From Paramacrobiotus metropolitanus (taxonomy: Eukaryota; Tardigrada; Eutardigrada; Parachela; Macrobiotidae): a DNA stretch of 64,000 nt. Of the stretch, positions 1 to 64,000 are shown in pieces. Position 1 is the first letter of the stretch. Every line of letters starts with the position of its first letter. The notes under the pieces were generated by a model that saw nothing but the letters and a program-made list of their open reading frames with translations, searched no databases and was not told the DNA's origin. The translations under genes and the position numbers were made by a program. The stretch spans positions 992,001-1,056,000 of the forward strand of contig NW_026570244.1 in assembly GCF_019649055.1 (NCBI RefSeq), in the 5' to 3' direction.

Positions 1-1293
1 AACGTTTCTTGGTGCACCATTAACCGATGAGGCTATAACTCACCTTCTGCAACAGAAAATTGCTTCCTTGAAACTTTTTACAGAACGTTTGCGAATACTA
101 AATGCCCATCACGGATTTTACCTGTTGCGGAACTGCCTGTCCATTCCGAAGCTCATGTATACACTGCGCTGCAGCCCATGTTGGAAAGTGCCGGCGCTGC
201 TGGATGAGTTTGACGGTCATGTTAAAGAAGCCTTGGAAGAAATCACCAATACCAAACTGGACGGACTTGTGTATACGCAGGCTACGCTACCCGTTGCCAA
301 AGGGGGTTTGGGTGTTCGACGAGCGAAAGCATTGGCTCCTTCTGCCAATTTGGCTTCCATGTTTGCGACTCGTCAGTTAACATCTCAGATCTTTCAAGGC
401 AGCAGCGAGCAGCTGGTCAGCGATGCGTGTGAACACTGGAAACTGGAGTCCGCATGTGATGAGTTACCGTTAGATTTGGCTCGTGTTCATCAGTGTGTAT
501 GGGATAATGCCGTCATACAGAAGGATGTTGATGTTTTGTGGAATAATGTTGGCGGCAATAAGCGAGCTGAAGCACGTATGAGAGCAGTTAGCACAAAATA
601 CGCCGGAGCCTGGCTCAATGCTCTTCCCGCGAAAGTTTTCGGCAACTTCCTGGATGATCAGACTTTCCGCATTTCTGTTGGCCTGTGGCTTGGTGCTAAG
701 ATCGTGGAGCAGCATTCGTGTGCGAGATGTGGTAAAGAGGTCGCGGAAAACGGATACCATGGGCTAGCGTGCAAGAAGTGCATCGGGAGAAGGAACGTCA
801 TAACGGCATTAACGATATCATATTGCGAGCACTATGTAATGCCGGCATTGAGTCATACCCGGAGCCCATTGGCTTTTTGCGCGAAAACGGAAAACGTCCG
901 GATGGAGCTACGCGTTGGAAGTGGTACCGCGGGCAGCCATTAGTATGGGACGTTACTTGCAGAGACACGATGGCGGATTCATACATCGACGCGACCTCAA
1001 AGTGTGCTGGCGCTGCCGCCGAACTGGCATGCCGGGAGAAGATTGGAAAATACAAGTCGCTTACTGATCGCTGTAATTTTGTCGCCTTTGCATGTGAGAC
1101 TTTTGGCACTTGGTGTGAGACCGGCATTGTAACGTTAAAGGAGATCGGTAAGAAGTTGTTTTTAAGGACGGGTGAGAGTCGCTCTACTTGTTTTCTGTTT
1201 CAGCGTTTAAGTTTGGAGATTATGCGTGGTAATGCAATGAGTGTATTGTGCACGGTCCCTTCCCATGTTAATTGGGACAAATTCTTCATTTGA
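1..1293 (+). mobile_element. Non-LTR retrotransposon 3' part (RT C-terminus plus endonuclease-like domain), frameshifted
   Basis: This is the C-terminal part of a retroelement polyprotein, open at the left window edge. The first frame (to about 795) carries the post-RT region and a zinc-binding motif CARC...H-x3-C at about 717-775. The reading then moves by one base near 790-800 into a second frame that holds RPDG, WDVTC and the DSYID...AGAAAE stretch and ends at the stop at 1291-1293. A cysteine/histidine knuckle followed by PDG...WDVT resembles the restriction-like endonuclease domain that follows RT in R2-type site-specific LINEs; that assignment is from family knowledge. The frameshift makes this copy non-functional. 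The last 30 coding bases and the following 30 recur at 17.75 kb, which marks them as the true element 3' end. The element meets the decayed F-box-like family copy tail to tail at about 1290. Confidence 0.75.
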
Positions 1294-3504
1294 TCATGTT
1301 TGTTGAGCGAAGCTCGCCTTGCACATATTGAGAAATTAAAATAATTAACATAGTCGCTATTTGATCCTTGTTGAGCGTGTCCTCGGTTTGAGTAACAATA
1401 ATGAATGTGCACTCGTGCAATCCAACTCTAACATGAAATCGACAATTGCGATCCGAAATCGACATACGACTATTCGGACGGTGGCCGTAATAACAGTGGC
1501 GAAACGAAAGGATGATACGGTAGATATCAGCCGCTTCCTGAAAAACGGACTCCGCATTGGGAAAGGGGATGACGTATTTTGTGTACGTCAGTGTGGTGCT
1601 TCCATCTGGAGCATCCATCTCCCTGGACGGCAGCTGCGCGACTACTTGACACCGGTCCACCACTTGGACGCAGGCGCTGGCAGTGGTGTAGAGGCCGTCA
1701 ACTCCAGAACTCTCTGGCCTCACAAACCACAGGCCGCACACTGTAAAAATAAGCATATACTGCACCTCATGGGGCCGAAGCCAGTGTTAGTCTGGGCCGT
1801 CTACTCTCTACTCTTCCCGTACGGTTCGGGCCGGCATCTAGCTTTTCCGGACCGATCCCGGTAAAAAGAGGCTTAAATAGAGACGGAGAGAAAGAGATGA
1901 TCGAGTTGATATACGCTCCAAACCTATACAACGTTACGTACCGCTGTCAGCGGTAAATAAATCATGGAGTTAATGCAGTCTCCTGGTGCATTTGTTTCGT
2001 TTGCGCTGCTTGCAAACCAGATAGATGTACGTTAACTGGTGATGAACATCCTTTTGAATTCACGAAACGTTCACGGTAGTTACGAGTTAACGCAAGTAAA
2101 ATTAGCAGACGAAATCTGGTACCGTGAAGTGCTGGCGAGAATGCGTGTGGCAAGAACTTGAAAAACCTCAACGCGGCCTAAATAAATTCTCCTATTGAAA
2201 AAATAGGAAATGGCTATTGTCACCCCCCTGCACCCCTTTTGACTACTGTCTACTGTCACCCTTTTTTTTAACTGAAATAAACACCCTATTGTCACTCATC
2301 ACCACACGCCCTTTCAGCTATTGCCACCAGCGGCTCTTTTTCAATTCTGTTCCTGCCACCACCGGCAGAAAAAAATCGCCAAGCAAACCTTATTGGCACT
2401 TAATGGATCACTAAAATGCGGCCTTATTTTTCTGATTTTGAACTTAGCATCTTCGGGATTTCATTTGTTGAGCTCCGCAGCAAATGCGATCGCACAAAAG
2501 TCCACAATTACGACAATCCCTTCGTTGCTACACCCGCGGAAACTAAATTCCGGTGTCCTCGCTCGCTTCCGGTTAATCTCGAGGCTTTCTTAATCAGTGG
2601 TGCCGATAGAACTGGTACCGAGAGTTTCGCCGGCAACGCAGAATCATAAACAAACGGCTAACCATTATAAGGCCTCGTCCCGAATTCAAAGCGAATCTCG
2701 TTGCGATGCAGCAACTCCACCTCGCGAGATGGCTTCGCGTACCGTATCTGTAGGCGTGGCCACTGCATACAGCCACCAGTTGGTATGACACTTTACAAAC
2801 AGCATTATAAAATCGATTATTATAGGTAGTACCTAATGTTTACCGGCACTTAAATTTGATGATGTACGGTACGAGAAACAGCTCTATGCTACTGATTCGG
2901 TGATTCCTAGCCACTTACAACTAACACCATCCAGTAAAGCTGCCGGCCGAAACCGAAACGGCCCGTCCATTTCGTCGCGTAACGCCACCAACACCTGCGT
3001 ATTTCTCCACTCAGTTGCGGACCAGTTGTCAGTAAGAAACGGAAGAGGCCAAATGAACCAGGCTTGAATCCAACGTGCAGTCGTTTTCGTGGAGTCGAAT
3101 TCAATGTAGGCGCAGCTCCCGTCTGCCGAAATATCCTACAATGTTACAGTACTTTATTCCTAAACCGTTAGCAGGAACTCGCACATCTTGACAAAGTTAA
3201 CCGTGCATCAGCACGATGCTTGAAGGTTTTTTGGCTTTAGCCTTTCCAACATGTTCTACAAGCCTTAAATCATTCAGCTTGTCTGCATGTGCAGCTTGCC
3301 GAAAGCCGACGTCGTTAATGTATCCGTGCGTACGAACATTATACGATACTGAATTGACTACTGCGAATGCTGCCAACATGCCTGCATATATCCTAACCAC
3401 CAGGAGCCGGACTGGGTCCTTACAGCAACGGTGTTCTGATAGCTGAACTTATCGATACCACGCAACACCCGTCGAAATGGGGGAAGACTTGCCGGAACTT
3501 CCAT
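1286..3504 (-). pseudogene. F-box-like family, copy 1 (truncated; N-terminal domains A and B only)
   Basis: First of four related copies in the window. On the minus strand an ATG at 3504 opens domain A: exon 3504-3382 carries LPPFRRVL, QNTVAV and SGSWWLGYMQ. It continues after a possible GC-AG intron in exon 3135-2919 (DISADGSCAYIEF, then VALRDEMDGPFRFRPA). A GTAAGT donor in phase 1 leads over a 1.18 kb intron to domain B, exon from 1740 (CVQVVD...LTYTKYVIPFP). The same blocks in the same order occur at 37.2-36.4 and 60.1-59.1 kb. The F-box-like and C-terminal exons present in the other two copies are absent: the retrotransposon end at 1293 lies where they should begin, so this copy is probably truncated by that insertion, unless they lie beyond the window edge. 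Function unknown. Domain A, with its WWLGYIQD-type core and following aromatic WLP motif, could be a Tudor/SH3-like barrel (inference). Confidence 0.65.
2195..2340 (+). repeat. Array of short GGCTATTGTCACC-like repeats
   Basis: Within the long intron of family copy 1 the plus strand shows GGCTATTGTCACC, CTACTGTCACCC, CCTATTGTCACTC and GCTATTGCCACC in about 140 bases. The start, AATAGGAAATGGCTATT, is shared with 6331. This looks like one end of a DNA element related to the one at 6.33-7.04 kb. Confidence 0.4.
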
Positions 3505-4014
3505 GCTGATCTACAGCAAACCAACACACAGTATTAAAATTAACATTACAGATAGTAACAATTTCCTACAAGTTAAGCAGATAAAAAGCCGAGTACGGAT
3601 GAACGACCTTTGCCACGTGGCACCTGTATGCCATAAAACTTTAAATATTAATAGTTTATGAAGCACAAGTAACAACGGACACTACCGCGCGTCCGATCAC
3701 TGCGGCCGGGTTTCATTTCGGTCACATACAATTTCTTCGGCCCACGGTTCAACGCTCATTTCATCTTATGCTCACTTCGGCCAGCATTCAATTTGGCCAC
3801 CGCTTGCGTCGGCTTTTACGTTTGTTTGTTAAGTTTTCTTCGGTTCTTTTTGCTAGGTCTTTTGGTTTTCATAGGTTTTCAACGGTTTTTGTAAAATACA
3901 GGGTTTCCCACACTTTTTAACATACACACCTCTGCAACATTCACAAAGCTTGGAACGGAAGGTGTGTTATAGAGAAGTTTCACTGTAGTGCGGAAAGAGG
4001 GCAGCCGTTTGTTT
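3505..4014. other. Intergenic, nothing recognised
   Basis: AT-rich sequence between family copy 1 and the protease relic. I see no exon, RNA gene or clear repeat. Confidence 0.5.
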
Positions 4015-18770: not shown

Positions 18771-20699
18771 TCAGCGCTCCTCAAGGATGATTTCGTAGGG
18801 ATCGGGGTACATGACGATGCCGTCGTTCTCGTTGAGGGAGGGCAACTCGCCGGCCGCGGGCGGGTGGATGGAGAAGTTGAGCATGATGTTGGCGAAGAAG
18901 AGGAAGAGCTCCTTGCGCGCCAACTGCTCCCCGATGCAGGAGCGCCGGCCCGCCGAGAAGGGCACGAACTGCTCCGGGACGGTCAACCGGCCGTCCGCCC
19001 CGAGGAAGCGCTCGGGCAGGAAGCGCTCCGGCTCGGGGAAGAGCGCCGGGTCGTGGTGGATGGAGAACAGGTGCAGCATCACCTGCGTCCCTATTTAATT
19101 CAATGCCGGGTTAGTGCCGGAGACTTAAAGGTCACCGGAAGTAGCTGTTTACCTTGGGGGATGGTGTAGTCGCCCAGTTTGGTGGTCTGCGTGCACATGT
19201 GCGGCACGGCGAAGGGGATGAGCGGGTACTTGCGCAGCGTCTCCAAGATGACCGCCTCCGTGTACACCAGCGCGTCGCGCTGCTCCAGCGTCACCTGCTG
19301 ACCGGAAGTGGACGAACGGGACCCCAGAACGCGGTCCATTTCCTCGTGGATCTTGGTCTGTACGTCCGGGTTGTGCAACAGCATCAGGAAGATCCTAATT
19401 TAAAAGGGAAAAGAAAGGTCACAGCATTGACTAACCGTGGGAAAGTCTTCCGCCTGCATTTTTACCACTGGAAAGCCGTCGTCGTCGTCTCGAAGCCACC
19501 GATAAAGAGATCCATCAGCACTTTGGGCAGCCTCTCCGCTCGGAAGACGGCCTTATCACCGGCCTTGGACGCTTCGTCGGCCGCCTTGTCGAACCAGTCG
19601 TCGACGAAGTCGCGCGGCATTCCCGGCTGGTGCCGTTCGACGTGCTCCTCGACGATGGATTTCAGGAAGGCGAACGTGCGTCGGAAGGTGTTGTATGCCG
19701 TCTTGAGCCTGCGACTGACAAAGAGGCGCAAGAGAGGGAAGGCTCGCGCCTGCTGGGAGATCATGACCTTTTTGATGGCCTCCGTCAGGTCGTCGCTGAG
19801 CGCGTGGAAATCGGTGTCGCCCTGCTGGAAGTTGTTGCCCATCAGCACCGAGCTGATCACGTTGGCGGAGGCGTTGGCCAGCGTGTTGCGGGGGTTGAAG
19901 GGGCGGGACGACTGCCCCTCGGAGGGGGCGGGGCAGTGCCGGCGGAAGGCGGTGATCAGTTCGTCGGCCTCGTGGAGAATCGTCTCCTGCATGCTGGACT
20001 TGCCGAAGCCGAAACTGCGCAGACTGATCAGCGTGATCTTGCGGATCTCCCGCTCTTCCTCACTGACGCCGCTGGCCACGATACCTACAGAAATCCGGAG
20101 AAGATATGTTACACAGCAACACATACTAACCGGCATTCAGCGCTTCTGCGTTGCTGTGTCGACCGCGCCGCAAGGTGCGTAACGTACCAGGCTCGCCAGC
20201 AATAACGTCCAAACTCCTCATTTCCGGCGGACGTCCGGCAAACTCCCAGGCGTGGTTGATCACGGCCTCTCGGAAGTATTCATAGGATGTAATCCACACG
20301 GACTTCCTATGAGTATCCATGCTTAGTTCAAATTCTGCATTAAGACATGTAGTCGCTATGGCAACCGCCCACAGAGTGTACTGCCTAAAACATGCTTTTG
20401 CGCTCTCATTACGCTACCAGCCAACAGTAGGGCTGCCGTCTGCGCAGTGCGTACCTGGGTCCGAGTTGGAGAGTGATGCAGCCGCCCAGTTGGCTGCCGG
20501 CCGCCTGGATGAGGCGGTGGCGTTGGCGGCTGAGCATGAGCGTCAGATTGCCGAGCAGCGGCCAGCCCGGTGGCTGCGGCGGTAGCGCTCCGCCCGCGGG
20601 CGGCCGCCGTGGCGCCGAGCTGCTCCAGCGCTGCAGGAAGTACAGCACCGCCGCCAGGAGGGCCGCGCTCCCCACCAACACACCAACCGTTGTCAACAT
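18771..20699 (-). CDS. Cytochrome P450, CYP2-clan-like microsomal monooxygenase
   Basis: Five exons: 20699-20455, 20306-20188, 20084-19466, 19394-19153 and 19090-18771, joining in frame to 514 residues, the normal size for a microsomal P450. The order of landmarks is complete: an N-terminal membrane anchor (about residues 5-25), a proline-rich hinge with PPGWPLLGNL, LQLGPRKSVW, the I-helix oxygen-binding motif GGFETTTT (about 317-324), the K-helix ETLR (379-382), the PERF region (EPERFLPERF) and the haem loop FSAGRRSCIG with ligand Cys460. P450s use NADPH-cytochrome P450 reductase to oxidise lipophilic substrates at the ER membrane. The GPR and FSAGRRSCIG signatures suggest the CYP2 clan; the substrate cannot be told. 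It is divergent from the secreted protein gene at 22268. All introns are 62-148 bases. Confidence 0.95.
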
Positions 20700-32799: not shown

Positions 32800-33600
32800 C
32801 TTTAAATTTTCCATTCCGTCCATGGTCTCGAGTGCGGAGGCCGCGTTGGATTTCGATGGATGGGCGTTGGCGCAGAAGTTCGAGTATGCAAGGTTCGCCT
32901 GTGTGCTGCTGTAGCCGCTTCCCGATTGCCAGATGCAGACTTTCCCCATGGCCCGTGAGTTTCAAAAACTAGTGGGGCAAAAATGTATCTGCCTTGGAGA
33001 TACGCGTCCAATCGGGTTTTCTTGTCTTCAACATGGGCAGCGGCGGAACCCGCGGTAGCGGAAGTGAGCTTAATGTGAGACCGAGCGACAGTGTCTACGC
33101 AGGTCACATCCCATGCTAAGCACATTCCGCGTTTCCATGCCAATGCGGTGCATCCGTCCGGGCGACGATCGGAAGCATGGGATGTGCCGCGGGGTTCGAG
33201 TTTCGCTGGTATGCCCCCTGAAACCAAAGAACGGCATACGATGCTGTTCAATTAACCCGCTGTTGCGAGCATCCCTTCCGGCGGAGTACGTGCAGGGTCA
33301 ACCCATGCCCACTAATTTGTGGCATTTCGCGCATGAAATGTGGCTCACAAATTACTGCGCCCAGCCTCAGCCCGACCGATATCTGCAAGGCGTCGCCGTC
33401 TAGGTGGTTGCCGATGTGTGCTGAAGGTAAGGCATTCAACCAAATACCGGCTTCGGGTTTGGATTGTGCAAGGAGACGGGCTTTATTGGTTTCCTCGTTT
33501 CGGAATACTTCCGGCAGGGTTGACAGCGATGCATTGCAGAGTGGCACGTCCCATGTTCGCTGTGCTGTGGGCCGAACTGGCAAGGCAGCTGTACAGCTGG
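32800..33600 (-). mobile_element. Retrotransposon relic, RT C-terminus and endonuclease-like domain
   Basis: Minus-strand frames follow the element of 1-1293 in order: WLNALPSAHIGNHLDGD...LQISVGLRLGA, a degraded zinc motif, RRPDG...KRGMCLAWDVTC, ATAGSAAAHVEDKK, FETHGPWG and IGKRLQQHTGE. At least two frame changes (near 33250 and 32960) kill it. It lies 350 bases downstream of the F-box-like family gene and in the same orientation. The nucleotide match to 7.1-7.5 kb (reverse complement) is strong. Confidence 0.7.
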
Positions 33601-33950: not shown

Positions 33951-36900
33951 TCACAAGCGCAGCAGGTAGCGGACAGACTCCCAGAAGCGACTCCGGTCTG
34001 CCGGCTCCACGGAGTCCCAGTACGCTCCCAACGCGGTCACCGTGCGCAGCAGGTCCGGCAAGGGCGGTGACGGCGGGAGGTGCTGCATGATGGCCGCCAA
34101 CATGGTGTTGTAATTGGCAGTGACGCCGTGGCAGCAGTCCAGCCGCAGAATGGGCACGCTGACCACCAGCGCCGGCAAGCTGCGGCCAAAGGGCGGCCGC
34201 CAGCGATAAGTACGCGGGATGTACACCCCGGGGGCGCCCATGGCAAACTCGTACAGCATGTTGTTCATGGCGTAGTCGACCAGCAGCAGCTGTGCACACA
34301 CTTCCGACAGAGGCGTCAAGCAGCGCAGCGCTCGCTTAGAGAACCACCCGCCCAGCTCGTACTCCACGACGCAGCGGTGCATTAGGATGCGCTGCAGTTG
34401 CTGGCCGGTGCAAGCGATGCGCACCAGATTGCTCAGAACAGCGATATCGTAATCCGTACTGGTCTCGTTGTTGCTGTGCACGTGCAAGCCCGGCGTCCAG
34501 CGGGTCCACACCAGGCTGCGCACGCTGCCACCCAAGGCGTACTGCAACAAACGGCCCAGCCGGAACATCTCGCTGTCCTTGTCCACGCTCTCCACGCGCA
34601 GACCCATGTCGACAATAACCAGTGCCGGTTTCCAGCCGACCAACACGTCGTTCCATACTGGACTCACTCTGCAATCGAAAATGCGCCACTCTCAACATAC
34701 CGTAATACTTCAACTTGCGGGAAGCTTGGCAAAATGCGGCACAATAATTATCGCATTCCCGAACTGCACGCGGTCGTTTCGAGTTGCAGTGATCGCGATC
34801 GCAACACGCAGACGTTGTCAATGCTGAATAAACAGTCAACTATGCACCTTCTTAGTTTGGCCTGGCTCACCGCATCCGCCAGCTCAAAGACTTGCGCAAG
34901 GACTTCCAGTGGTAAGGACTGGACTTGCACTCCTTGGTCGGAAACTGGAAATACGTATTTCACCTCGGTAAGCACCAGCAGAAAACGGCACTGCACTACC
35001 AGCTACCAGGACAAGTACAGTCATAATCCGTTTCTTATTTTTTTGCCAGTTAAAATCTTGTGAAAATTTTTCGTGTCACAGGTTGCAGAACATGCTGCAG
35101 ATCATCTCGTGGCCATTCTTTCACGTATGGGCGTTTTGAATATTGGCAACTGTTTTTATTTAGACTTTAGAGGAATACCTCTTCGTTTAATGATAAAGCA
35201 GTTGTGGACATGCTGCTTGCGCTGGACGAGTTGCTGCAGTCCGCGCACCTTGTAACAAAAAAATCCCGGTTTTTAATTTCATGTTAATGAGCAGTTTCGT
35301 TAAAATTTTTGGTTGCGTGTAGGGTCGCAACAAGAAAGGCGGGTTTTACTTCAAAATGTAACTAATACATTGCCCTTCCAAAATAAGATTGAAACAGATT
35401 AGCTTTTAAAGAGCTGGTCAGAAATTTGCTTTCAAAAACCCTTCTTGCGGATTTCATGAGATTACTCGTGTGGAGTTTCCGTTATTCCGTGCACTGGTCA
35501 AAGCCGATTGATAGAATATGTATTGCCATTCCTTATACTAAAAAGCACGAAACAACCCCTCTACCCAAAACATTAACGTGAGATAAATTATTCTAATTAC
35601 ATCCGATGTACCTCGTATCATCATTACTTTTGTTCCACGTTTAAGTTTTGCTGGCGTAAGTACTTTTACGTATTTCTGCGGTGTCCTTTTACGAATAATC
35701 CTACATGAATTTTTTTAAATTAGTTAATTCACACGATACACGATGGATACGGGATACCCACGAACACTGAAAACGGCAGGATACACAGAGAATACGTCTT
35801 ACAGAATGTAGCTGAGAAGCAGCAATTTTTAATTTCGGAATGGGTAAGTAATTTCTAGTATTGTTTTCCCTTCCAGGACATCCTCGAAATCTACTCAATT
35901 TTTCAAAATAATTCATAAAAGAGTTCAGTCTTAAGAAAATCTTTGTTTGACTTAAAATTTCTACGTTAAAAACATTGCCCTTTCGAATGAAACTAAGATA
36001 ATGACACTCAAGTAAGTATTGGACGGATCCCGTGCACAATCGTAAAGTAGATCGATATTTTGTTCAGCCACCCGGTATGTATCCTCTCGTATCGCTTCCG
36101 ATCCTATCACTCTCTGCTCGTGATCGGAGATCACCTGGGGCAACTCGTCTATCAGATGATCGGAGATCATCTGGGGCAACTCGGCAACTTACGCGGGAAA
36201 AATATTTTCGAAACTGTTCGCATGAGATTTGTAAACAGGCGTTGGCCAGAGCAGTAACGGTATGTACATACTTCTACCCGTAATGTTCATATTAATAAAT
36301 TACATAATAAACCACAGTAATACATAATAAAATACATACATAATAAACCGCAGTAATTACATAATAAACCACAGTATCTGTACTGTGTAGTTTCAAGTAA
36401 ATTGATATGCTTACAGTTCGCCGGTGGCACGGCTGGAATCCAGGGCGCTAGCGACGGTAAACGATCTGCCAGCGCTCCACTGTCGAGAAGTCGGCGGAGG
36501 CCGCGCTGCAGCAGTTCTGCAGTCCAGAAAGAGACGTGGTATTCCCAGCATATAATCCGCACAGAGTCTCTCTGAACCCGAAAGTAGAATCGGTTATCGT
36601 ATCCGCCGACATAATGGTAGCGGCCCGGCCTAGACTGCAGATCGTGGCGCGAGTGCTTCACTTCGTAGTGGAGGCGGTTCTCGTCGATGCTGTAGCCGAG
36701 AGGAGTGTCATCTCCTGCATCCATAGCTAGGGGTAGGGCCAGGACATATTTGGCGTAGAGTCCCTGCCGTCGGCAGCGGCCCGCCAGGGGCTGCGACGGC
36801 AGCCGTCCCGCTAGCTGCACGAGGTGAACCAGATGCCGACGAGCGCCGCTCGTCGTCGCCACGTAACACACCCGACAACGGCTGCCCCACACCAACACAC

Positions 36901-37240
36901 TCGCCGCCTCAAACACCAGCGGCGCCTCTCTGCTGGCGCGCAGAGCAACCAGCACGTCCCTGCTCTTTTGACTCGTAGGAAGGGGTGGGTGGACGACGTC
37001 GTGGGGGAAGACCGCGTGGGACGGCAACCACCTCGGCGCGAGCCTAGTGCAGTGGAAGTTAATGTACATCTCGTCGCCAGCCATGTCCTCGATAAATCCC
37101 AAACACCACACGTCGCTACCGTCGTCGGCCAGTTTAACTGGCACCATCACCGTGTTCTTACAGGCCACGCGGTGCCCCACCCGCCGGCACTCGCTAGCTG
37201 GACTGCCGAGACACGAGGAGGTAATTTCCTCCATGGCCAT
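33951..37240 (-). CDS. F-box-like family protein, copy 2 (apparently intact)
   Basis: Three exons: 37240-36415, 34944-34848 and 34668-33951, giving 546 residues. Domain A (about 20-130) has the conserved core VWCLGFIEDMAGDEMYINF and PRWLPSHAVFP. Domain B (about 155-265) has LYAKYVLALP and a Phe/Tyr-rich end. A short exon then encodes an F-box-like helix block SLPLEVLAQVFELA...KLRR (about 285-308), split in phase 2 just before VSPVWNDVL. The C-terminal domain (309-546) ends RYLLRL. F-box proteins usually present substrates to SCF ubiquitin ligases; here that is inferred from one short motif. Copies 1 and 3 have a phase-1 intron between A and B that is absent here. The large intron (1.47 kb) holds no recognised exon. 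The family appears lineage-specific. Confidence 0.6.
36297..36375 (+). repeat. Tandem ACATAATAAACCACAGTA repeats
   Basis: Three to four imperfect copies of a unit of about 20-23 bases, just inside the first intron of copy 2. Confidence 0.6.
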
Positions 37241-39059
37241 TGGAAGTTGGCAGAATAATCAATGCGGAATGCCAGTTCTCACAAGCTGGCGTTAATTAGC
37301 GCTGCGCATGCATCCTGATATCAACAGCTGCCACAATATTATTATTATTTACCGTCATTTCCCTGATGCGCATTCATACGTCAATGAAGGAATGTGGCAA
37401 GTATAAACACACCTTCATGGAAATGATACCTCACGCCGATCATGTAGAAATAACGTTGATTGATCACGAAAACTGACGAAATGGTCGTGTTGATTCTGTC
37501 ATGTATCATGTGTCAGGTTCGCAACGGTTTTTGAACATAAAGAACTCTTGCAAGAAAATTGCCGTACTTAATTGTATGTGAAGATGTTCGCTGAGATATT
37601 GCAGACTCTGAAGAGTCTAGATTCTAGACTCTAGAATCGCAAAGTCTGCAATGAATTTTGTGATAGTCTTCCGTGAAAAGCATTTCTAATTTCTATAAGA
37701 GGGCAACCGCCCCGAGTAGTCGTAGCTGTCAACCGGCGATAGAGGCACCCGCCCATGTTACGGTTGTGCACAGCCGCCCACGGGGCGGGCTATTCAACTA
37801 GGGCATGGCGACATTAGACGTATGGCAAGCCGGGGAATAAAAATACGGCTCGGGGGTGAAAATGTTTCGCTATGCGGCTAAAAGCATAAAAGAAACTTGA
37901 AGTTCAAGCTTCAAGTAGCGGAAATGTTTGGATGAGTATTTAACTAAAATAATTGTTAATGTGTTGTATTCCACAGATGGTGTTTCGATAGTGTCTAAAG
38001 TTTAGAAATTAGCCGCTGCCTTCTACTGGGTTTTATTGTTTAGTATTTTTTTAATCGTTTCTTGTTGGTGATAGCTTTTGATTCCTTTATGGTGATAACG
38101 CACGACATTTCGCGTCCTGTGATGATTAATCAGTTGCCGGTACCGTTTTGTGTCGGCTGTGTTTGTCGTTGTGTTGCAGCCGCAGCGCGTTAATTGTGTG
38201 AAGTGTTGTGTTGTGTTCCGGCTGATTGTCAGCGCGTCAGCTTTCCGCCAGCGCTGACACTGGCGTATTCGCTTGTTTTCTTTGCCGGCCATTTGCAAGC
38301 TAGCCATGCATAGCGACGGCCACGATCGGGCTGTTGTTGTGCGGTACGTGTGAATTTCTCCGCAATTGCAAGGCCAAGTGCGTTACTGTGCTTATTCATT
38401 TCATATGCATTTCTATGCCAATGCCAACCGGAAATTGGTGTTAATGTGGCTGCCGTATAATACGCGATGTGCTGTATCTAGCGTACGTGCGGCTGCGGCA
38501 ATCACATATTCTGCTGCTCGGCGCGTCTTTTCTCAATTAGTTCCTGGCTATTTATGCCGTTTTTACGCGCTACATGCTAGTAATATTATGCGCCGACTGG
38601 CGGCTTCCGTGCTGATACATGCATTATAATAATCAGCGTGATTCATGCGCCAACGATATAATATTATGATCATTGATCATGCGCTGCGTGGAGTGATGGA
38701 AAGAAGTTGATACAGTTACAGTTGCGCTTCCCTCGCGTACTTTGCTAAGATCCTTCTGATTATTCATGTATTTTGATCCTTGTGCGTCCTGACTGCAGCG
38801 CACGCGTTCTGCCGGTCCAGTTGCAACCAGTGCGTCGGTGATGGGCTAAATATAGCCGAACTGATCTTATCGCCTGTATATATCCCTCATTCTGCGCTTG
38901 TGCTGGAGTTTGTGGATACATATATGCGCCAAGAAAATCTTGTAGTACATGCAGCGCATATATACAGCGCGTTGAAAATGTGCAGATTTGACCCTGAACG
39001 GCATCAGCATCACATGCCCTGATTATTCTATCATTTTGTTGTTTTTCTCAAGGGACAGC
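37241..39059. other. Intergenic; second copy of the 32 kb repeat
   Basis: Short inverted motifs at 37612-37640 (AGAGTCTAGATTCTAGACTC) and the counterpart of the 32 kb repeat at 37955-38040 and 38583-38630. CATATATAC at 38957 could be a TATA element for the serpin. No coding exon recognised. Confidence 0.45.
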
Positions 39060-40454
39060 ATGTTGCGATTGTTGACAGTGTTAATGTTGTTGTTGGCGGG
39101 ATGGTCGGCGGGTCAGTCGCCGCCGCCATCGCCGCCGTCGCCCAGCAACGACGTGGATCGGCTGCGGCAGGCCAGCGACCGTTTCGCGCTGTCGCTGTAC
39201 CAGGCGCTGGCCGGCGCCCGCGACGCCAACGCCAACCTGTTCTTCTCGCCGCTCAGTATTAACGCCGCCCTCCTCATGACCTACCTGGGCGCCGTCAACG
39301 CCACCCGCGACGAGCTGGGCCGGGCGCTGGGCGTCAGCGATGTGCTGGGCACCCGCGCCGACCACCTGAACCGCGCCTACTCCGCCGTGGTGGACATCTT
39401 CAAGGCGGAGCCGGCGCGCACCTACCAGCTGCGCCTGGCCAACCGCATCTGCTTGCGGCAGGACGTGCAGCTGCGCCCCGACTACCAGGCCAGTCTCCGG
39501 CAGTTCTACGACACGGAGGTGGCGCGCTACGACTTCGCCGGGGCGGCGGAGCCGGCGCGGCTGGAGATGAACGCCTGGGTGGCCAACGCCACGGGCGGCC
39601 GCATCCGCAACCTGCTGGCGCCGGGCATGGTCAGCGCGCAGACGCTGATGCTGCTGCTCAACGCCATCTACTTCAAAGCCGACTGGCAGTACCAGTTCGA
39701 CAAGGCCGCCACGGCCGACCACCGCTTCTGGCTGTCGCCGGCCAAACAGCTGGACGCCAAGATGATGTCGGCGCGCCGGCGGATGTTCTACGCCGAGACG
39801 GAGCAGCTGCAGGCCGTGGAGATCCCCTACCGCAGCGAGGAGCTGAGCATGCTGCTGCTGCTGCCGCGGGCGGTCGACGGGCTGGCCGCCCTGGAGCGGG
39901 GGTTGAGTGTGCGGACGTGGCAGGCGCTGCAGGACCAGATGGACATGCGGCTGGTGGCGCTGACGCTGCCCAAGTTCAAGCTGGAGACGGCCTACGACCT
40001 GGTGCAGCCGCTGCGCAGTCTGGGGATTAATCGGTTGTTCGGGCCGGCGGAGCTGGACGGGATGGCGGAGAACGCCGCCGGGCTGGGCGTCAGCGATGTC
40101 GTCCATAAAGCGTTTGTCGGTACGACATCAAATGCAATTTGTTCCTCATTTAAAAATATTGTTAGTAATTACTAATGGTAATTAATTTATTTTTAACGGC
40201 AATATTCGTAATATTTTGGAATAAATCGGGTGAATCAATACTGACCGCTTGCTGGTGTTGCAGAGGTGAACGAGGAGGGCACGGAAGCGGCGGCGGCCAC
40301 GGGCGTGGTCTTCTCGCGGTCGGCGGTGCTGCCCAAGCAGGACGAGACGAAGGAGTTGCGCGCCGACCACCCCTTCCTCTTCGCCATCCGCCACAACCCC
40401 ACCAACCTCGTCCTCTTCCTCGGCCGCATCAACGACCCCACGCTCTCCTCCTGA
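39060..40454 (+). CDS. Secreted inhibitory serpin
   Basis: Two exons, 39060-40119 and 40264-40454 (phase 1), 416 residues, a typical serpin length. A signal peptide ([18 protein letters not shown]) is followed by a Pro/Ser linker and the complete serpin fold: [41 protein letters not shown], then [11 protein letters not shown]. The reactive-loop hinge [13 protein letters not shown] (from 357) has small residues at P12-P9, as needed for loop insertion, so it should inhibit. The loop continues [10 protein letters not shown], putting Arg372 or Ser373 at P1; Arg would favour trypsin-like proteases. The C-terminal [10 protein letters not shown]...LFLGRINDP is canonical. The Met at 39060 is chosen because it starts the signal peptide; the frame is open further upstream. 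One intron falls just before the hinge. Confidence 0.95.
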
Positions 40455-45908: not shown

Positions 45909-45930
45909 GCCAGCCGGGACTTCCGGTATC

Positions 45931-56730: not shown

Positions 56731-59700
56731 TCAGCGCGCCGCAAAGACCTGGCTGATGGCTAGCAGAGCCATCCTACTTAGTTGGCGAACATCCAACTGG
56801 CGCAAATCAGTCTCGTCCCAGCGCAGCGGTGACCCATCCGCCTGGAAGCCGCTGAATCTGTAATGCAGACAGTTGAAAGGATTCGCATTAACAACTGACA
56901 CGTTGCACTGCCTATTTCTACTGACACGGACAAGAGATGGCGAATTGTTTGCCATTCCTCGGGATAGGCCAGGCTGTGCAGCCACCGCCCATGGACAGCG
57001 CTTACGGTGTCGTACACCTGGTCGTCCACCGGCGGCAACGCGGCGTCCAGCGCGCACATCAGGCGGCTGATGAGGCCGTGCCAGCCGTCAGCGCTGTCGC
57101 AGGGCAGGACGACCCGGCGCAGCGCCACTTGCCAGATGCCGTCCGGGAAATCCGTGGCGTTCGACAGCATGCGGCGCCGCTCCGATGCCGGAAACGGCGT
57201 GCTGTTGTAGTGTTCCCCAAACGTATAAAATATGGCCCAGAGCGCATCGTAGAACAGTCTGGCTACCGTCCAATTGTGCACGATGAGGGTGTGACAGTGA
57301 CCTTTGAATGGGCGCAGACGGTGCATGATGCCGTGTTTCAACCAGCATTGCTCCTGCTTAAAACCAGAATGTTTCCTCCAGGCGCATTCGTGGTACGGTC
57401 GAGCAGAACAGGCGAAACGGGCGCCGCTGAGCACGACCCACTGCAGTTGCAGCTTGGTCAGGCTGAGCCAGTGTTCTACAACGTGGAGGTGGTTAGCGGT
57501 GCCGCAGCCAGTGAGGGCGAGACTCTTGGTGGCCGCGTTGACGCTGCGATTCAACAGGATAGCCACGGTGTAACAAGTATCGTTGAAGACCTGTCGGCAG
57601 GCACAACCCCCGTACCGTATGGTGATGTGCTGGTTATTAGTCCAGGGAGCGCTTAACAACGCCTGCCACAACGAGCACACCCTGTATCGCAAAACATCTG
57701 ATGATCATCAGCCGGCCTACAGTTTTATGCATTTTTACAGTTTTACCATCACATTGTAAAGGTGAAAAAATTGTGAAACAAAATCAGTCTTATTCTCAAA
57801 CGACTGCCTTGTGTAGCCAAGTTTCATAAAACATAAAAAATGGCATAATAGTCAGGCTTTTGCTACAGTTACCGTTTAGTCCGCATCTGATTCTGAAGGT
57901 CCAAATTTGCAAATATTTCCAACAAGATCACATGCGAAAGGTGACAAATACAAGCGTCCGGGCACATCTCACCGCTTTCTGTAAAGGAAATGCGCACTAT
58001 ATTGCGGTGATTAATCGAATACTGGGAAACAGGAATGATTTAATTACAGTACTTCAGCCTGTATAACGAGTACTTTCGTAAAATTTGCAAAGAATACCAA
58101 AAAAAACTGCTGACACATTCAGCATGTAGATGGAAACTGTGTCGCATTAAGTTCAATTTTATCCAGATTTACTCTTCGTATAACCGCTTCGCAAACGCCG
58201 GTGTAATCGCTGGGTGACTTCTGACAAAGCGGCTATTAAATTATGATTGCATAAACGAAATGAAGACCAACCAACTTAAGGAAAATGGCCCGATACATAC
58301 ATAGTGTCAAAAATGGGATACTTTAACTAAAACGTTCGCTTTCGCGCAGTCCGAATCACTTTTTTGTAATACTTTATGCCGTTCTAAAGCCAAATGGTTT
58401 GCAAACATTGTCCCACAAACCGGTTGCGCACGCAACAAAGATGTGGCCAACTAAAATGGGCGAAAAGTTTTAATGCATTGTGTGTACCAAACGTCTGTTT
58501 ATTACCCGATCTTCTTGAAACTTTGCTGGAAAAAATCCATTTTAAAATTATGGAGAAGTGCTATGAACCTACAACTGGTTCACTTTCGACTTTATGGCCA
58601 TTGGCCATGCGTTTTTTATAGCAAAGTTTCAAGAAGATCGGGCAATAACCAGACTTTTGGTATACAGCAATACATTTAAACGTTTCGCCCATTTTAGTTC
58701 GCCATATCTCGGCAACCGGATGTTGCACGCACAAACGGCTTTTAGTACAATGAATACAATCTTTTAGCTTTAGAATGACATAAAGTAAGTACTACAACAA
58801 AGTGATTCGGAGTTCGTGTAAGCGGAAGTTTTAGTGTATGTAAACCATTTTTGACACCATGTACCGGGCAGCATGTTTGACACAGTTTCCCTTAATTGTA
58901 AGGTATGTACAGTATGTCTCCTCACCTGTCACCTGCAAAAACTGATTAGATAAAAGACTGCCAAAAATGTTCGATTATTACACTAATAACGCGCAAAAGA
59001 AGCAGTTGAAAGGGTAAATGGTATCGTTGGTTTAGCCAGCTAAAACACTGCTTGCCCACCTGCACGGTTGACACACGGTCCATTACGAATACCGTGTTGG
59101 TATACGTGCTGGACAGAGAGGCCAATCCGGTTCGTCAAATGATTCTTCAGGACCTCGTATAAAGAAGCAGTCATTTCGGCCTCGGTGACGACCTCCGTGG
59201 TAAGGTTTATGACGATAAACGTGCACGTGTTTGGTCCAGTTTGCAAGTGAAACCGACAACCGTCGGTTAGTACATCGGTTATATAGACTTTCAAGTGCCG
59301 GTAATAAGCGTCGCGGAACTGTGTGATAATGCGCGCTATGTCTGCTCTCTCTTGGAGAAGGGACGCTGCATGCGGAAAAGGAATAACGTGTTTGGTGTAC
59401 GTCAAGGCATTGCTTCGACCTTGGACAGGAAATGCAGCCGGCGGCAGTTATGCGACGATCTGACAGCAGTCCACCACTTGCACCGAAGCGCTGCTCACTC
59501 CATCCGTCTGCGTACTTATACAACACAAACCGCAGCCTGTAAAATCAGCAGTTTTCTACAAATTAGTTTTCACAATTTTATCGTTTTCTACACCTACAGT
59601 TTTCTACAAATACCCTAGCCGTTCTCGAACCAAACCAGCATATACATGTATGCCCATGACCAGTACCTTTAATAAGTATCACGGAACAAGTACATACAAA

Positions 59701-60097
59701 CTTACAATACAGAAAGCATACATGTACTGTACATACTACGACGATAATCCAGCAGAATTGCCGGCCGAAACCGGAACGGTCCGTTCACATGGTCGCGCAG
59801 CGCCACCCACACCTGCATCTCCATGTTCGTCCATTGGACCGTTTCTCCGAAATTCATCAGCGACGTGCTGTCGGAAAGCAAGGACAGGATCCAAACGGCG
59901 TCAGTTGGAAGCCAACCCGCCGCTGCCTGTGGGGAGGCGAAAGCAACGTAGACGTGCCTACCGTCTACAGCGATATCTTGAATGTATCCTAACCACCACG
60001 AACCGTCCGGGCTCAGTACAGCTACCGTATTGTGGTAGCCGAACCCGTCAGCCACACGCAGCACGCGTCCAAAGGGTGGCAAACCTGTCCCGTCCAT
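56731..60097 (-). pseudogene. F-box-like family, copy 3 (in-frame stop in domain B)
   Basis: Exons 60097-59743 (A), 59536 to about 59060 (B), 57978-57873 (F-box-like), about 57693-56932 (C) and 56855-56731 (tail). Domain A has LPPFGRVLRV, HNTVAVL, SWWLGYIQDIAVDG and VALRDHVNGPFRFRPA. B has SASVQVVDCCQIVA, then TAA at 59450-59448 where copy 1 has Gln, and continues in frame with LTYTKHVIPFP. The F-box-like exon reads LSHVILLEIFANLDLQNQ...TKR and joins VCSLWQALL with the same phase as in copy 2. C contains DGIWQVALRRVVLPCDSADG, matching copy 2. The conserved exon order and phases show descent from a working gene. The stop indicates a pseudogene, unless the start of B is skipped by splicing. It probably lies inside an intron of the LIM-SH3 gene. 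Confidence 0.65.
58288..58869. mobile_element. Foldback (long inverted repeat) element
   Basis: Two arms of about 250 bases, 58288-58535 and 58618-58869, are near-perfect reverse complements. Pairs include CCCGATCTTCTTGAAACTTT with its complement, CTAAAATGGGCGAAA and CCGAATCAC, around a loop of about 85 bases. The ends read CCCGATACAT...ATGTACCGGG. No coding capacity. It lies between exons B and F of family copy 3, inside their intron. Confidence 0.8.
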
Positions 60098-60212
60098 GCT
60101 GGCCACTGGACAGTGGCACTGCCCAAGCATTCGCAAATATCCGAAGGTACTCCTGTCGTGCTACCGCTGTAAGAAATGTGTTTCTCTGATTATTAAGCTC
60201 CTGTGGTGGTAG

Positions 60213-60269: not shown

Positions 60270-60342
60270 GTGGTAGTATAAGGAGAAAAGCGGCTCACGT
60301 TCACGTACAGCGAAAAGGTCTTTCAAGGATTGTCAACACTAT

Positions 60343-60416: not shown

Positions 60417-61140
60417 TTTTCAGTCGTTTCTCGGTTTCCCTCGGATGGCGCCTGCTGAGAGTAGAATGTGCACGGTTCGCAAAAAAATGTAACATAGTAA
60501 CTCTGTTAAGTAATTATAACAAAGAAGAGAAAACACAAAGGACAAAACATGGCCCAACACTCCAAAAGAATGGGCGGAGTGAGTACAGTGTGTGCAGATA
60601 CCTAGTGCCACTCGGACGAGTACAACTACAAAATTGATAATTATGATGCATGCGTACGTATTAATTTTAATTGTTTTGTGCATCTGTTGCACGATATGTA
60701 TGTTCTGTGCGCTGTATACAGTATCTGTAGTCTGTACATTTTAATAATAGATATGCAGTAACATTAGTAACCTCGTAACTGTTGCAACGTAGGGAGTGGT
60801 CCGGCGCTAGACTTAATCTCCGGGATTCAGAGGGGGTGTGAAGGGAATCGTCCCTCCCCTTGCACTTGTATGATACGCCTCTATGTTTGCTCCAGTATCT
60901 CTGTTTCCGCCTGTATCTCTGTTGTATCTCTGTTTCCGCCCCTTATTTGGGAATATATATAGATACAGCGATCATGTGTATGAGCTCCATCAGAGTAATA
61001 GTGTTTCAGTTTTGGTTCAGTATTAAAGCTGTTTGCCGAGTATTAAGTATATTTTTTCCTGCCGTTGCTCGCCACAGGAGGAGCAAGGGTTACAAGGCTC
61101 AAGCAGAAATCCATCGATTAATTTGAATTAAACTACTTAC

Positions 61141-61222
61141 CTGCTGGCGCTCGGCGACTGCCAGCCCCTGATGGCTGGCCGTGTTGCACAGCAACCCCTT
61201 TTCTGGCCTTTTTCGACTATCC
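61141..61222 (-). CDS. Candidate internal exon, gene unknown
   Basis: GC-rich island on the minus strand bounded by GAGTTGCAG and CAG/GTAAGT, a perfect donor. 82 bases with two open phases (for example EKGLLCNTASHQGLAVAERQ). It could be a linker exon of the LIM-SH3 gene whose last exon is at 56.4 kb, but the sequence is not diagnostic. Confidence 0.3.
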
Positions 61223-62155
61223 CTGCAACTCACCCCTTCACCGCATGCTTTTTTCCTACGCCCAGCTCAAGCGGGCTGCGAATATTCGCCTGATATATGC
61301 TGGGCTCTTGGAACTGCAGAATAAGTAGTCGCGTACTCACAAAGGTAGAGTCACTGGAGTGCTAATAACACGACAATAATTAGGTTCAGACAACAGCTGC
61401 AGATAGTAGTGGGTACTTGAGACACCTCGTTTTTCTCTAGACCCTACTCCGTTTTCTTCCGGTTTTTATTCCGAGCAACTTTAAAAAAAATCTGCGTTTT
61501 TCATGGTGCTCAGAAAGTTTAAAAACGGTAGACCGTTCTGGATTTATGCGGTAAAAAACTAGTGACGATTCAGAAGAGATATTCATTTCCGGTCCGGAGA
61601 TATACCGGGAACGGAGAACCCGCAAGGCTTGTCTTATGCCACTGTCCCCCAAGAAAACAACGAATTAAGCCACTCCACGACCGCAACCAGTCACTGCATT
61701 ACCAAACCCTATAATTTTACGAACCAATTACCGTCGCCAGTGCTGCGTTCGTTTGCAAGTGCTGCATATATGGTTCTTGATGCATCCTCACATGTGTCGA
61801 CTGACAGGGAAAAACTGACGGGGGCTGGAAAAAACGAGGTGCCCCACTACCAACCAGTCCGCGGTTCGACATACTTTAACTTTACCTAATCATAATGGCT
61901 AATACGAATAGGATTCTAATTTATAGGGGTAAGTAATGCGTATTCAAAAGGACCAAGTGTGATAATGCACACATGAGCCTAGTTTTTCGAACCAAAATAT
62001 TTCCGTTCTGACAAAGTTAGAAGACAATGCATATAAAAATTCCATGTTTTTCAGTATTTACCACTAGTAATTTGAAGCAAGTATCTTCCGTTCTTATCCG
62101 CAGCTGCACTCCGACTCTTGGTACAAGCGAGTGCTTCCATTTGTAGGACCAACTC

Positions 62156-62193
62156 ACTACCAAGACCCCCTCTATACAGGGGGTCCTGGTAGT
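62156..62193. other. Hairpin with G/C-rich stem
   Basis: ACTACCA-A-GACCCCCT, loop CTATAC, AGGGGGTC-C-TGGTAGT: fifteen pairs with one mismatch. Confidence 0.6.
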
Positions 62194-62457
62194 ACTCCTA
62201 AGTATGCGCCGTAGTACGGGAAGTATATTATTATTAAAGTGCTCACTCGAGGATAATGAGATACTGGATATCTGCTGCAGATTACTACACCTCAGTACCT
62301 AGTACATAATTATGTAGTACAATCATAATAATTATAGCTAGTATACATACACATCATATAGATGCTAATAACGATTATTATAATTTGAATACGAGTACAG
62401 TATTACCTGTATACTTGTGGGCAGCAGCTTTCCAACATGAGACCACTTGCAACAACT

Positions 62458-62480
62458 CACCGTAAAATTATTTTACGGTG
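62458..62480. other. Ten-bp palindrome
   Basis: CACCGTAAAA, loop TTA, TTTTACGGTG. Confidence 0.6.
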
Positions 62481-63194
62481 AAGAAATACTGTGCGATACA
62501 AGTTAACAAGTAGCCCGAAGGCTGAAGGGAGCACAAGTTAACGCGTATAAATCGCTGGGATATAAAAATTATTCCACTGTCAAAGGAAACTCACTTAATT
62601 ATAACATTCTCAAGCACCCACGCAGTTCAATCACGTAGTGGCAACATCATAACTGGGCAAATACAAGAACACACTCTAGAGTAGCATTAATGCACTTGCA
62701 GCGCTTCCCGTGCTGAGCCAGTCAGTGGCCACTAATTCTCATAATATGGTTCATTGTTCATCGGTATCCGAGATTTGTGAATCACCAAAAATGTGAGCCA
62801 GTAATTATAAGAATGTTACTATTGTATACGAATTCTATTTATATTTACATACGAGTGGTACTCTATATTATTAAGCTACTCTAGTTATTCTCAAACGAGT
62901 GAGCGTTTTTCTAGCTGTACAGGATGACGGAGATTTGTATTATTGTACTTCAACGAACTGCTACCTGAACCAACGAGCCGAATACTTAGTCGCTGCATTT
63001 GCTTTACTTCTGTTATATTTTATTGATGAGCGAATACAAAGTAATCTAACATCCACAAAAGAAACATTACTGCGTCGAGCAGTTGAGCAGTAATATAAAA
63101 AAACCAAAAATTTTTAATTTGTTTTGAAATTGAGAAAAAATGCTACCGCTCTGGTTCAGTGTAAAAAAATCTTTGTACTAATGTGCATTTACGT

Positions 63195-63440
63195 GAAAAA
63201 TTTGAAAAAGATCGGTCCATAATGAGACTTTTGGTATACAGATACCTGAAGGCATTTAACTTTCTAGAACTTTTGATTCGCCCATAACTTTCCAACCGGA
63301 TGTTGCGCGCGCAAACGGATTGACGCCTGTGTATACAAATCCTTTGGCTACAAATTTGAAATATCAATGCAAAATGTGTTAGGGAGTGCGCGACAGCGGA
63401 AGTTCTCGTGCATGTACACGAATTTGGTGCTATGTACCGT
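63195..63440 (+). repeat. Single-arm copy of the foldback element
   Basis: It follows the right arm of the 58.3-58.9 kb element in order: AGATCGGTCCATAATGAGAC, TTTTGGTATACAG, TTCGCCCATAACTTTCCAAC, CGGATGTTGCGCGCGCAAAC, then GCTATGTACCG. The inverted partner arm was not found nearby. Confidence 0.65.
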
Positions 63441-63583
63441 ATTACAGTTCCCATCGTATCGTGCAATACCGGACTGGACCGAACCGTATCAAGTGAGCGT
63501 GTGGCAACAACAGTGTTCAGTATGCTTGTTGCCGACTCTCGAATCATTGCAATCGCGGACTGCCTAATCTAAATCTATATATT

Positions 63584-63632
63584 AGTATGTATATTTAATA
63601 TATCGCATTGCGATATATTAAATATACATACT
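63584..63632. other. Perfect 24-bp palindrome, one-base spacer
   Basis: AGTATGTATATTTAATATAT (plus CGCA) at 63584-63607 is exactly mirrored at 63609-63632 around a single T. AT-rich and cruciform-capable. Confidence 0.75.
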
Positions 63633-63800
63633 GTATAATGTACAGTACTTTCTAGTTTATACATACCAATACCACTGTGCCAATACCGTCGTAATTAATT
63701 TTTCATATCGCGCTGTCGCCCTGGTTTTAACTGGCAGTGCTATCTAGCATAGAATCATACGGAGCACCAGGATTATCAAGTGGGCGTACAACCACGGCCA

Positions 63801-64000
63801 ATGCCCAGTTGGCCATACCGGCGCCTGAAATTCGACCGCAATCTCAGCAGCGGCAATACCGTCCAGGTCCGGCTGCAGTACGCCTGGTAGCTGCGCTTCG
63901 TGGAGGACATGGCCGCCGGCGGCGGCGACCAGCAGGTGTACGGCAACTTACGCTGCAGCGCACTCCCGACCGGTGAACATTGGCTGACCTTCCCGGGTCC
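63801..64000 (+). pseudogene. F-box-like family, copy 4 (partial, in-frame stop)
   Basis: The plus-strand frame from the ATG at 63801 reads PYRRLKFDRN, NTVQVRLQYAW, then TAG (63888-63890) where other copies have Trp or Cys, and continues LRFVEDMAAG...VYGNLRC. This matches domain A of copies 1-3 (PFRRVLR, NTVAV, WWLGYIQD). It is cut by the window end. The only copy on the plus strand. A one-base TGG to TAG change is the simplest explanation. Confidence 0.55.

Follow-up and report, generated by a model that had tools for sequence, protein, structure and literature searches.

An FMRP/FXR-type tandem Tudor module joined to an F-box in a large gene family of the tardigrade Paramacrobiotus metropolitanus

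An F-box is a plug that links proteins to the cell's disposal machinery, and Tudor modules of the FMRP type have been described in a small family of translational regulators. Are the two combined in one protein family in a tardigrade, and what might such proteins do? The question is raised by a window of 64,000 nt, the whole stretch of DNA analysed here (Paramacrobiotus metropolitanus, GCF_019649055.1, NW_026570244.1, 992,001 to 1,056,000, forward strand), in which an earlier note had described four copies of an undescribed family made up of domain A, domain B, an F-box-like helix exon and domain C. The A, B, F and C motifs are present at the positions that it gave. The assertion that all four copies share all the blocks holds for copies 2 and 3 but not for copy 4, which is a fragment of domain A, nor for copy 1, which lacks F and C in the window.

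The four copies in the window

Copy 2, on the minus strand, is predicted to be the sole intact member among the four. Its first exon (36415..37240, with the ATG at 37240 and the donor after 36415) carries the tandem-Tudor domain A and domain B in one open exon and supplied row one of the FMRP/FXR-matching profile. The F-box helix exon (LPLEVLAQVF...KLRR) spans 34848..34995, the acceptor at 34995 having been placed by phase, and the last exon, 33951..34668, supplies the second half of the F-box (VSPVWNDVL), domain C and the stop codon. These exons splice through GT/AG introns into a single frame of 563 aa. Domain A matches an 11-locus family profile, of which copy 2 is itself a member, with E 4e-114. 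The B motif LTYTKxVIPFP, said to be common to the copies, has diverged here to YAKYVLALPL, and the complete model of copy 2 has no KH match.

Copy 3, also on the minus strand, has the same blocks. The reading frame of exon 1 (59702..60097, donor position approximate) contains the first Tudor and the start of the second and matches the 11-locus profile with E 3.4e-17. Exon 2 (59060..59536, its start placed by a putative acceptor and its donor after 59060) completes domain A and goes on, after an in-frame TAA at 59448-59450, with domain B. The F-box helix exon (LSHVILLEIF...RTKR) lies at 57873..57978, and the last exon, with VCSLWQALL and domain C, at 56778..57681. Exons B, F and C fuse into one frame; the TAA, however, falls between A and B, so that the whole protein is not encoded by the copy as assembled.

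Copy 1 lies on the minus strand, with the start of domain A (MEVPASLPPF...WWLGYMQ) at 3361..3504, the remainder of the first Tudor and the start of the second at 2887..3135 (E 1.7e-11 against the 11-locus profile), and the rest of the second Tudor with domain B at 1286..1786 (B exon, E 5e-5 against the same profile). Neither F nor C occurs within the window. Its F-helix exon was found outside it, on the minus strand near C24:989,400, which is some 3.9 kb downstream of B, and the 4 kb taken for this locus contains nothing better than E 0.9 for domain C. Copy 4 (63801..64000, plus strand) is a domain A relic whose WxLG motif is interrupted by a stop codon in frame, and no frame of at least 60 aa in the 3.9 kb cut taken at this place matches the A+B profile. 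Retroelement-like ORFs, recognised by eye and without Pfam match, adjoin copies 1 and 2.

A phase-2 intron within the F-box

The F-helix exon joins the domain C exon in phase 2 in both copy 2 and copy 3, in agreement with the same-phase join noted earlier, and the intron divides the F-box itself. When all three phases were allowed, a complete F-box split by a phase-2 intron was recovered in 22 of 32 loci; these pairs score at least 28.9 bits, compared with 14.5 bits for the best control. Thirteen of the 22 loci were used to build the model and nine are independent of it. In the stretch taken, seven of the remaining loci have no F-box, copy 1 being among them although its helix exon lies further downstream, and three have the helix only. 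In a second subfamily (subfamily 2) the F-box is split in like manner. In two loci, L008 and L009, domains A and B and the F-box helix lie within one open exon.

The suspected F-box character of the F exon was borne out by Pfam. PF00646 recognises each of the 13 joined pieces at E<=1; these pieces had been chosen by eye, with one F-box-like join kept per locus and other joins omitted (L002, L021 and L025 were later regained by profile). The joined piece scores 27.9 bits for copy 3 and, over 53 residues, 20.8 bits for copy 2, against a cut-off of 20.5 bits. Among ten joined pieces, six exceed a curated cut-off of PF00646 or PF12937 and four exceed none. Full-length spliced copy 2 lies under both cut-offs, with 18.4 bits for PF00646 and 19.4 bits for PF12937.

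The 149 strongest unspliced F-box matches were considered as parts of the family and set aside, as no more than two of them share the strand of an A/B place and follow it at a distance of up to 4 kb downstream. Those arrays of F-boxes that occur on C52, C168, C92 and others form a separate set. Matches to CagY in the PDB (E 4e-11, 0 stretches) were likewise rejected as probable repeat artefacts; the first PDB F-boxes that match over a real stretch, both weakly, are FBXL3 (E 0.1) and FBXL2 (E 0.23).

Domain A and its relation to FMRP/FXR

Comparison of domain A with PDB sequences indicates an FMRP/FXR-type tandem Tudor, recognisable at the profile level. A 43-member A+B profile, derived from 47 A+B frames by omitting four that were incomplete, frame-disturbed or very divergent, was searched against 177,635 PDB sequences. 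It has seven matches at E<=10: six are to FMRP, FXR1 or FXR2, with E from 2.6e-4 to 5.3e-3, and the remaining one has E 1.3; an 11-member profile gave four matches, all to FMRP (E 0.0021-0.0048). In hhalign, A aligns with the tandem Tudor at E 3.4e-5 (probability 72) and A+B with FMR1/FMRP/FXR1 at E 1.8e-4 (probability 48), HH probabilities that we regard as moderate; the controls gave E 0.18 for B against Tudor and E 0.5 for A against KH0. The register of the alignment covers both Tudors, including R-x4-[EG]-P-x2-[WF]-x2-A. In the reverse search of 4,990 reading frames with a Tudor profile of FMR1/FMRP/FXR1, every one of the top 37 rows, which reach to E 0.84, is FMR1 or a family first-Tudor exon; two are FMR1 by construction, and the rest come from the family and subfamily 2 with some loci repeated. 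Single members are matched weakly in Pfam (Tudor_FRX1 in 2 of 43, Agenet in 3 of 43, best E 0.0013), and the identity of the family to the FMR1 profile is approximately 16-17%. AlphaFold run on alignments from the window only returned pLDDT values of 35 and 34.

Some first Tudor exons of subfamily 2 exceed the Pfam cut-off for Tudor_FRX1. The exon that follows was not recognised as a Tudor (E 0.62) and found no FMRP in the PDB search; we have discounted its resemblance to a second Tudor, which is by eye alone. Methyl-lysine reading was similarly set aside as the default function. By alignment columns, the family does not keep FMRP T102 and Y103, which we take to be positions important for methyl-lysine binding; the argument is a weak one, since the animal's own FMR1 is also without them. 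An aromatic pocket is placed in the second Tudor of FXR1 and FXR2 by PMC2970552, with a numbering that differs from that of the chain compared here, and was for that reason left aside.

Domain B, about 110 residues long, occupies the position that KH0 takes in FMRP. Its identity as KH0 seemed convincing by eye (YxKHxIPF compared with FMRP TFHKIKLDV, and TKNTFHKITIPL in subfamily 2), but was not supported by the profile tests: hhalign gave E 0.24 for B against KH0, and KH_9 was found in none of 43 window-type and none of 14 subfamily 2 members taken singly, a search in which HMMER filters discard weak matches. The subfamily 2 exon set does align with FMR1/FMRP/FXR1 in the expected register, weakly, at E 0.0055 over 21 columns only. 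Domain C is family-specific and about 235 residues long. The 17 C domains analysed (from 22 C frames, five having been omitted because they were short or extended beyond the locus) match no LRR family in Pfam, a result at the sequence level that is compatible with a hidden LRR fold, and the C profile has a single PDB match, to a kinesin-like protein at E 2.8. No Pfam model covers any of the A, B or C exons.

The family thus resembles FMRP, FXR1 and FXR2 in its N-terminal tandem Tudor, with the same order and register, and in having B at the KH0 position. It differs in that copy 2 has an F-box and domain C in place of KH1-KH2 and the RGG region, and in its many loci instead of a single gene. 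The same genome has one separate, ordinary FMR1, with Tudor to KH0 at C5:3,433,332-3,433,952. Because the KH1-KH2/RGG region was not encountered, we do not file the family under FMRP/FXR. The expectation of a Tudor-like domain A is upheld, and the description of the family as undescribed survives in part. A is of a known kind and F is a known F-box. The check set by the earlier note, whether profile searches would place the blocks in a common metazoan family, was answered half in the affirmative: they place the Tudor portion and do not place the fusion. The A-B-F-C combination is absent from those titles and abstracts that were listed by the literature searches.

Family size, turnover and a probable role

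Three protein searches of the P. metropolitanus genome gave matches at 324 distinct places, so that the original four copies are a small part of the family. This figure is a lower bound, and a place that it includes need not be an intact gene; the union behind it includes 150 of the 151 matches of one of its searches. An attempt to estimate how many copies exist in all, by way of the overlap between searches, was abandoned because these are biased toward different subfamilies. The family is very large and its matches are mostly open frames: internal stops were seen in 4 of 141 rows, in 7 of 150 among the matches listed and in 14 of 80 in a third set, counts that underestimate decay because the matched stretches are partial and were chosen by score. 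In the window, at least two of the four copies are damaged. Forty-three of the 324 places cluster on C27, and pairs range in dS from 0.02 to >1. Copy numbers, clustering and the spread of dS support birth-and-death turnover, as had been proposed for these dispersed, partly decayed copies. Coding constraint is evident, with dN/dS of 0.26-0.56 across the 25 closest pairs and of 0.17-0.65 per domain, and A, B and C each below 1 where tested (nine pairs).

We consider it likely, judging from the sequences, that the family encodes substrate adaptors of SCF ubiquitin ligases with a new FMRP-like receptor module. With the order tandem Tudor, domain B, F-box and domain C, the F-box would dock on SKP1, and thereby on cullin-1, and the Tudor/B module in front together with domain C behind would select a target, which would then be ubiquitinated. 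The genome has four SKP1-family matches. Family size and turnover suggest targets that change; viruses, mobile elements or food organisms could supply such proteins or ribonucleoproteins. A more specific proposal, which we advance tentatively and think unlikely as it stands, is that the tardigrade lineage joined the whole FMRP N-terminal module of tandem Tudor and KH0, a unit that binds ligands and ribonucleoproteins, to an F-box, and that this fusion, spread over >300 loci, marks foreign viral or mobile-element ribonucleoproteins for destruction, intracellular recognition having been made from a translational regulator.

An alternative is an ordinary expanded F-box family whose N-terminus is a generic pair of Agenet/Tudor barrels without any particular tie to FMRP, the matches arising because FMRP/FXR are the best-represented tandem Agenet proteins in the PDB. 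The low identity to FMR1 and the similar frequency of Agenet and Tudor_FRX1 matches in single members fit such an origin. We nevertheless judge it improbable, as no other Tudor or Agenet protein appears at E<=10 in the PDB search with the 43-member profile, the register extends over both Tudors with the R-x4-[EG]-P-x2-[WF]-x2-A pattern, and first Tudors of subfamily 2 exceed the FMRP-specific Tudor_FRX1 cut-off in company with the same split F-box.

It is less probable again that the F-box is no longer SCF-active and that the proteins are decoys or scaffolds binding FMRP-type partners or ribonucleoproteins. Several members do have F-box scores near or under the curated cut-offs, but divergence within both subfamilies has left the core of the F-box and its intron in place, and the genome contains SKP1 genes. 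That the blocks are neighbouring genes or mobile-element cargo, accidentally joined and not one protein, seems very improbable indeed. The retroelement-like ORFs seen beside copies 1 and 2 would suit it, as would the fact that the joins are predicted from genomic sequence; it is opposed by the single open exons holding A, B and the F helix in two loci, by an intron phase common to 22 of 32 loci where the best control reaches 14.5 bits, by the splicing of copy 2 in one frame and by the constraint on A, B and C.

As putative SCF adaptors, these proteins would represent a new receptor type, with FMRP-type Tudors as the front of predicted F-box proteins at hundreds of loci in one animal, and would provide a naturally occurring library of FMRP-Tudor variants on which selection acts. 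Were the targets viral or transposon ribonucleoproteins, an unrecognised layer of intracellular defence in tardigrades would be implied. The family may also explain part of the genome's gene content that is unnamed in public family libraries.

Among known F-box proteins, the F-box/LRR (FBXL) group is similar in having an F-box followed by a C-terminal domain, but differs in that domain C here has no LRR match in Pfam or the PDB and a large Tudor module precedes the F-box. The expanded F-box families of Caenorhabditis have different partner domains, FTH and FBA. A further partner, a transposase helix-turn-helix, is described in PMC12062965, a word search of which finds no Tudor, Agenet, FMR or tardigrade. 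The Caenorhabditis expansions, as PMC8665587 and PMC12062965 present them, are large, lineage-specific and quick to turn over, as is the tardigrade family.

Condition of the copies in the window

The motifs that the earlier note had reported for four copies of one multidomain family were all found at its positions. The family has an N-terminal domain (A), a next domain (B), an F-box helix exon and a C-terminal domain (C). The window spans C24:992001–1056000 in an assembly of 169.8 Mb and 533 contigs. A profile of the A+B exon built from 11 loci matched copy 2 (37240–33951, minus strand), copy 3 (60097–56731, minus strand) and pieces of copy 1 (3504–1286, minus strand). Copy 2 alone is intact, its three exons with GT/AG borders joining in one 563-residue frame. 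In copy 3 all the blocks are there, yet A is cut off from B by an in-frame TAA. In copy 1, domain A is present as two pieces and B is there as well; the F-helix exon of this copy (EACIRHLEHTILIEIFANLDLQSQMRIKR, with a GTAAGC donor after it) sits outside the window, about 3.9 kb past B. Copy 4 (63801–64000, plus strand) is a relic containing a stop. The first Tudor of copy 1 (see below) is split by a short intron at about 3361–3390 (minus strand) whose donor lacks an obvious GT, and copy 1 may no longer be spliced correctly.

Relationship of domain A to the FMRP Tudor domains

No Pfam family covers the A+B exon, and scans of 43 single members gave Agenet in three and Tudor_FRX1 in two, with a best E-value of 0.0013. 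A profile of the 43 members compared with 177,635 PDB sequences returned seven matches at E up to 10: four FMRP sequences (2.6e-4 to 6.8e-4), FXR1 (3.7e-3), FXR2 (5.3e-3) and a seventh at 1.3, with both Tudors spanned by the best alignments. In profile–profile comparison with a reference built from human FMRP, FXR1 and the FMR1 of this genome, the A+B exon aligned at E 1.8e-4 (probability 48) and A alone aligned with the Tudor region at E 3.4e-5 (probability 72), the controls being 0.5 for A against KH0 and 0.18 for B against Tudor. The reference Tudor profile was also run in reverse over 4990 reading frames drawn from the window and the loci retrieved. Apart from two FMR1 rows that are there by construction, the top 37 rows, in which some loci appear more than once, consist of Tudor exons of the family and of its second subfamily (subfamily 2); the first frame of any other kind follows at E 0.97. 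Many single members score weakly (copy 2, E 0.23). Positions held in common with the FMRP type include V-x-V at the start, the D in WxLGxxxD and R-x4-[EG]-P-x2-[WF]-x2-A, the R and P of which occur in all 43 members.

Subfamily 2 (for example C209:97403, C122:7401 and C106:65741, given as contig and position) provides a bridge. Its first Tudor exons exceed the Tudor_FRX1 cut-off of 25.9 bits at C209 (27.3) and C106:65813 (30.4). One first-Tudor exon of the subfamily, at L065, also matches the window-type profile at E 9.8e-5. By eye, the next exon looks like a second Tudor plus B; to hhalign it was not recognisable as a Tudor (E 0.62). This genome also encodes an ordinary FMR1, which has matches to Tudor_FRX1, KH_9 and KH_1.

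B is placed after A as KH0 is placed after the Tudors in FMRP. A KH0 identity for B of the window's type is unsupported by the sequence tests (E 0.24). Subfamily 2 gave a short in-register alignment with FMR1/FMRP/FXR1 (E 0.0055), and its PDB search yielded a single match, to a retinol-binding protein (E 0.78). Domain C, of about 235 residues, extends to the stop codon; an alignment of 17 of the 22 C frames had no convincing match in Pfam or PDB, the best being DUF3615 for one of the 17 at E 0.0055. Methyl-lysine reading by the Tudor module is unsupported because the FMRP positions that we take to be the relevant ones are not kept in the family; the animal's own FMR1 likewise lacks them.

The split F-box

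The helix exon is joined through a phase-2 intron to an exon beginning V(C/S)xxW. A strict pattern search requiring phase 2 found this pair in 13 of 31 loci, compared with 0/31 on the antisense strand and 7/620 in shuffles of three-base blocks. Thirteen joined pieces chosen by eye (12 loci in common with the strict search, L010 replacing L002) all matched PF00646 at E up to 1, the best at 1.1e-6. When a profile of these pieces was applied to splice pairs of any of the three phases at 32 loci, 25 loci scored above 20 bits, comprising 22 complete F-boxes and three with the helix only; the best control scores were 14.5 (antisense) and 14.4 (shuffled, one shuffle each). All 22 complete F-boxes use phase 2, and nine of them are absent from the profile. 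At two loci, L008 and L009, a single open exon holds A, B and the helix, so that this join can be read without assuming any splicing. Copy 2 at full length scores under both F-box cut-offs, and the single-protein evidence for this copy is therefore marginal; the evidence from the family as a whole is not.

In subfamily 2 an F-box with the same intron comes after the next exon. Among 17 entries (L064 and L067 being one locus) five have a complete F-box, at 18.0–36.1 bits, and in several more just the helix was found, compared with at most 7.7 on the antisense strand. A Pfam scan of four of the five complete pieces placed three above a curated F-box cut-off.

The joined exons are maintained as coding sequence, since all dN/dS values (NG86) lie below 1: 0.26–0.56 for the 25 closest pairs and, in nine chosen pairs with an approximate A/B border, 0.20–0.51 for A and 0.17–0.61 for B, with 0.27–0.65 for C in the five pairs having it. 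Not all of these pairs are independent.

Family size, possible function and neighbouring features

Protein searches of the genome with A+B of copy 2 gave at least 141 matches (141 of 564 candidates scored). With B of copy 3 there were at least 151, of which 150 were listed (150 of 204 scored), and a divergent member gave at least 80 (118 of 446 scored), with a stop inside the matched stretch in 4/141, 7/150 and 14/80 rows, respectively. Pooled, and with rows on one strand merged within 1.5 kb, they define at least 324 places, which are spread over 114 contigs; C27 alone carries 43. Subfamily 2 has 37 matches for the first Tudor exon, some weak ones (such as C82:361317) overlapping the first set, and 25 for the next exons; in both subfamilies the counts are of matches, not intact genes. 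Subfamily-2 Tudor/F-box genes are clustered at C53:799000–893400. Five divergent members lie on one strand at C114:361316–409541, two with stops inside; L051 of this group has a Tudor_FRX1 match with E 1.3e-4, short of the curated cut-off, and forms a further bridge towards FMRP.

Given the F-box and four SKP1 matches in the genome, the natural reading is that the family proteins would be SCF adaptors, in which the front (Tudor/B) and rear (C) domains would form the target receptor. From copy number and turnover, and on the analogy of other F-box sets that have expanded (PMC8665587, PMC12062965), we infer that the targets may be fast-changing foreign proteins. No such Tudor/F-box family was met in the titles and abstracts listed by literature searches on tardigrade F-box proteins or on FMRP, Tudor or Agenet together with F-box. 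In PMC5688124 FXR1 is reported to be a substrate of an F-box protein, a relation different from the Tudor–F-box fusion seen here.

At least 149 F-box-like (PF12937) matches (150 of 997 candidates scored) were also found, on contigs including C52, C168, C92, C93, C94, C82, C31, C35, C380 and C77. Two of the 149 lie less than 4 kb from a Tudor place on its downstream side; the other 147 make up a second expanded F-box set.

Open reading frames sharing the motif PDG...W..G.PL..DVTC.DT adjoin copies 1 and 2 in the window (736–1293, plus strand; 32802–33251, minus strand) and occur in L007 (2903–3739, plus strand). To the eye they look like retroelement tails; the two in the window have no Pfam match. 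The frame at 736–1293 abuts the B exon of copy 1, between it and the F-helix exon. The window also contains a cytochrome P450 exon (19465–20136, minus strand; PF00067, E 2e-22) and a serpin in one long open frame (38976–40175, plus strand; PF00079, E 6e-83).
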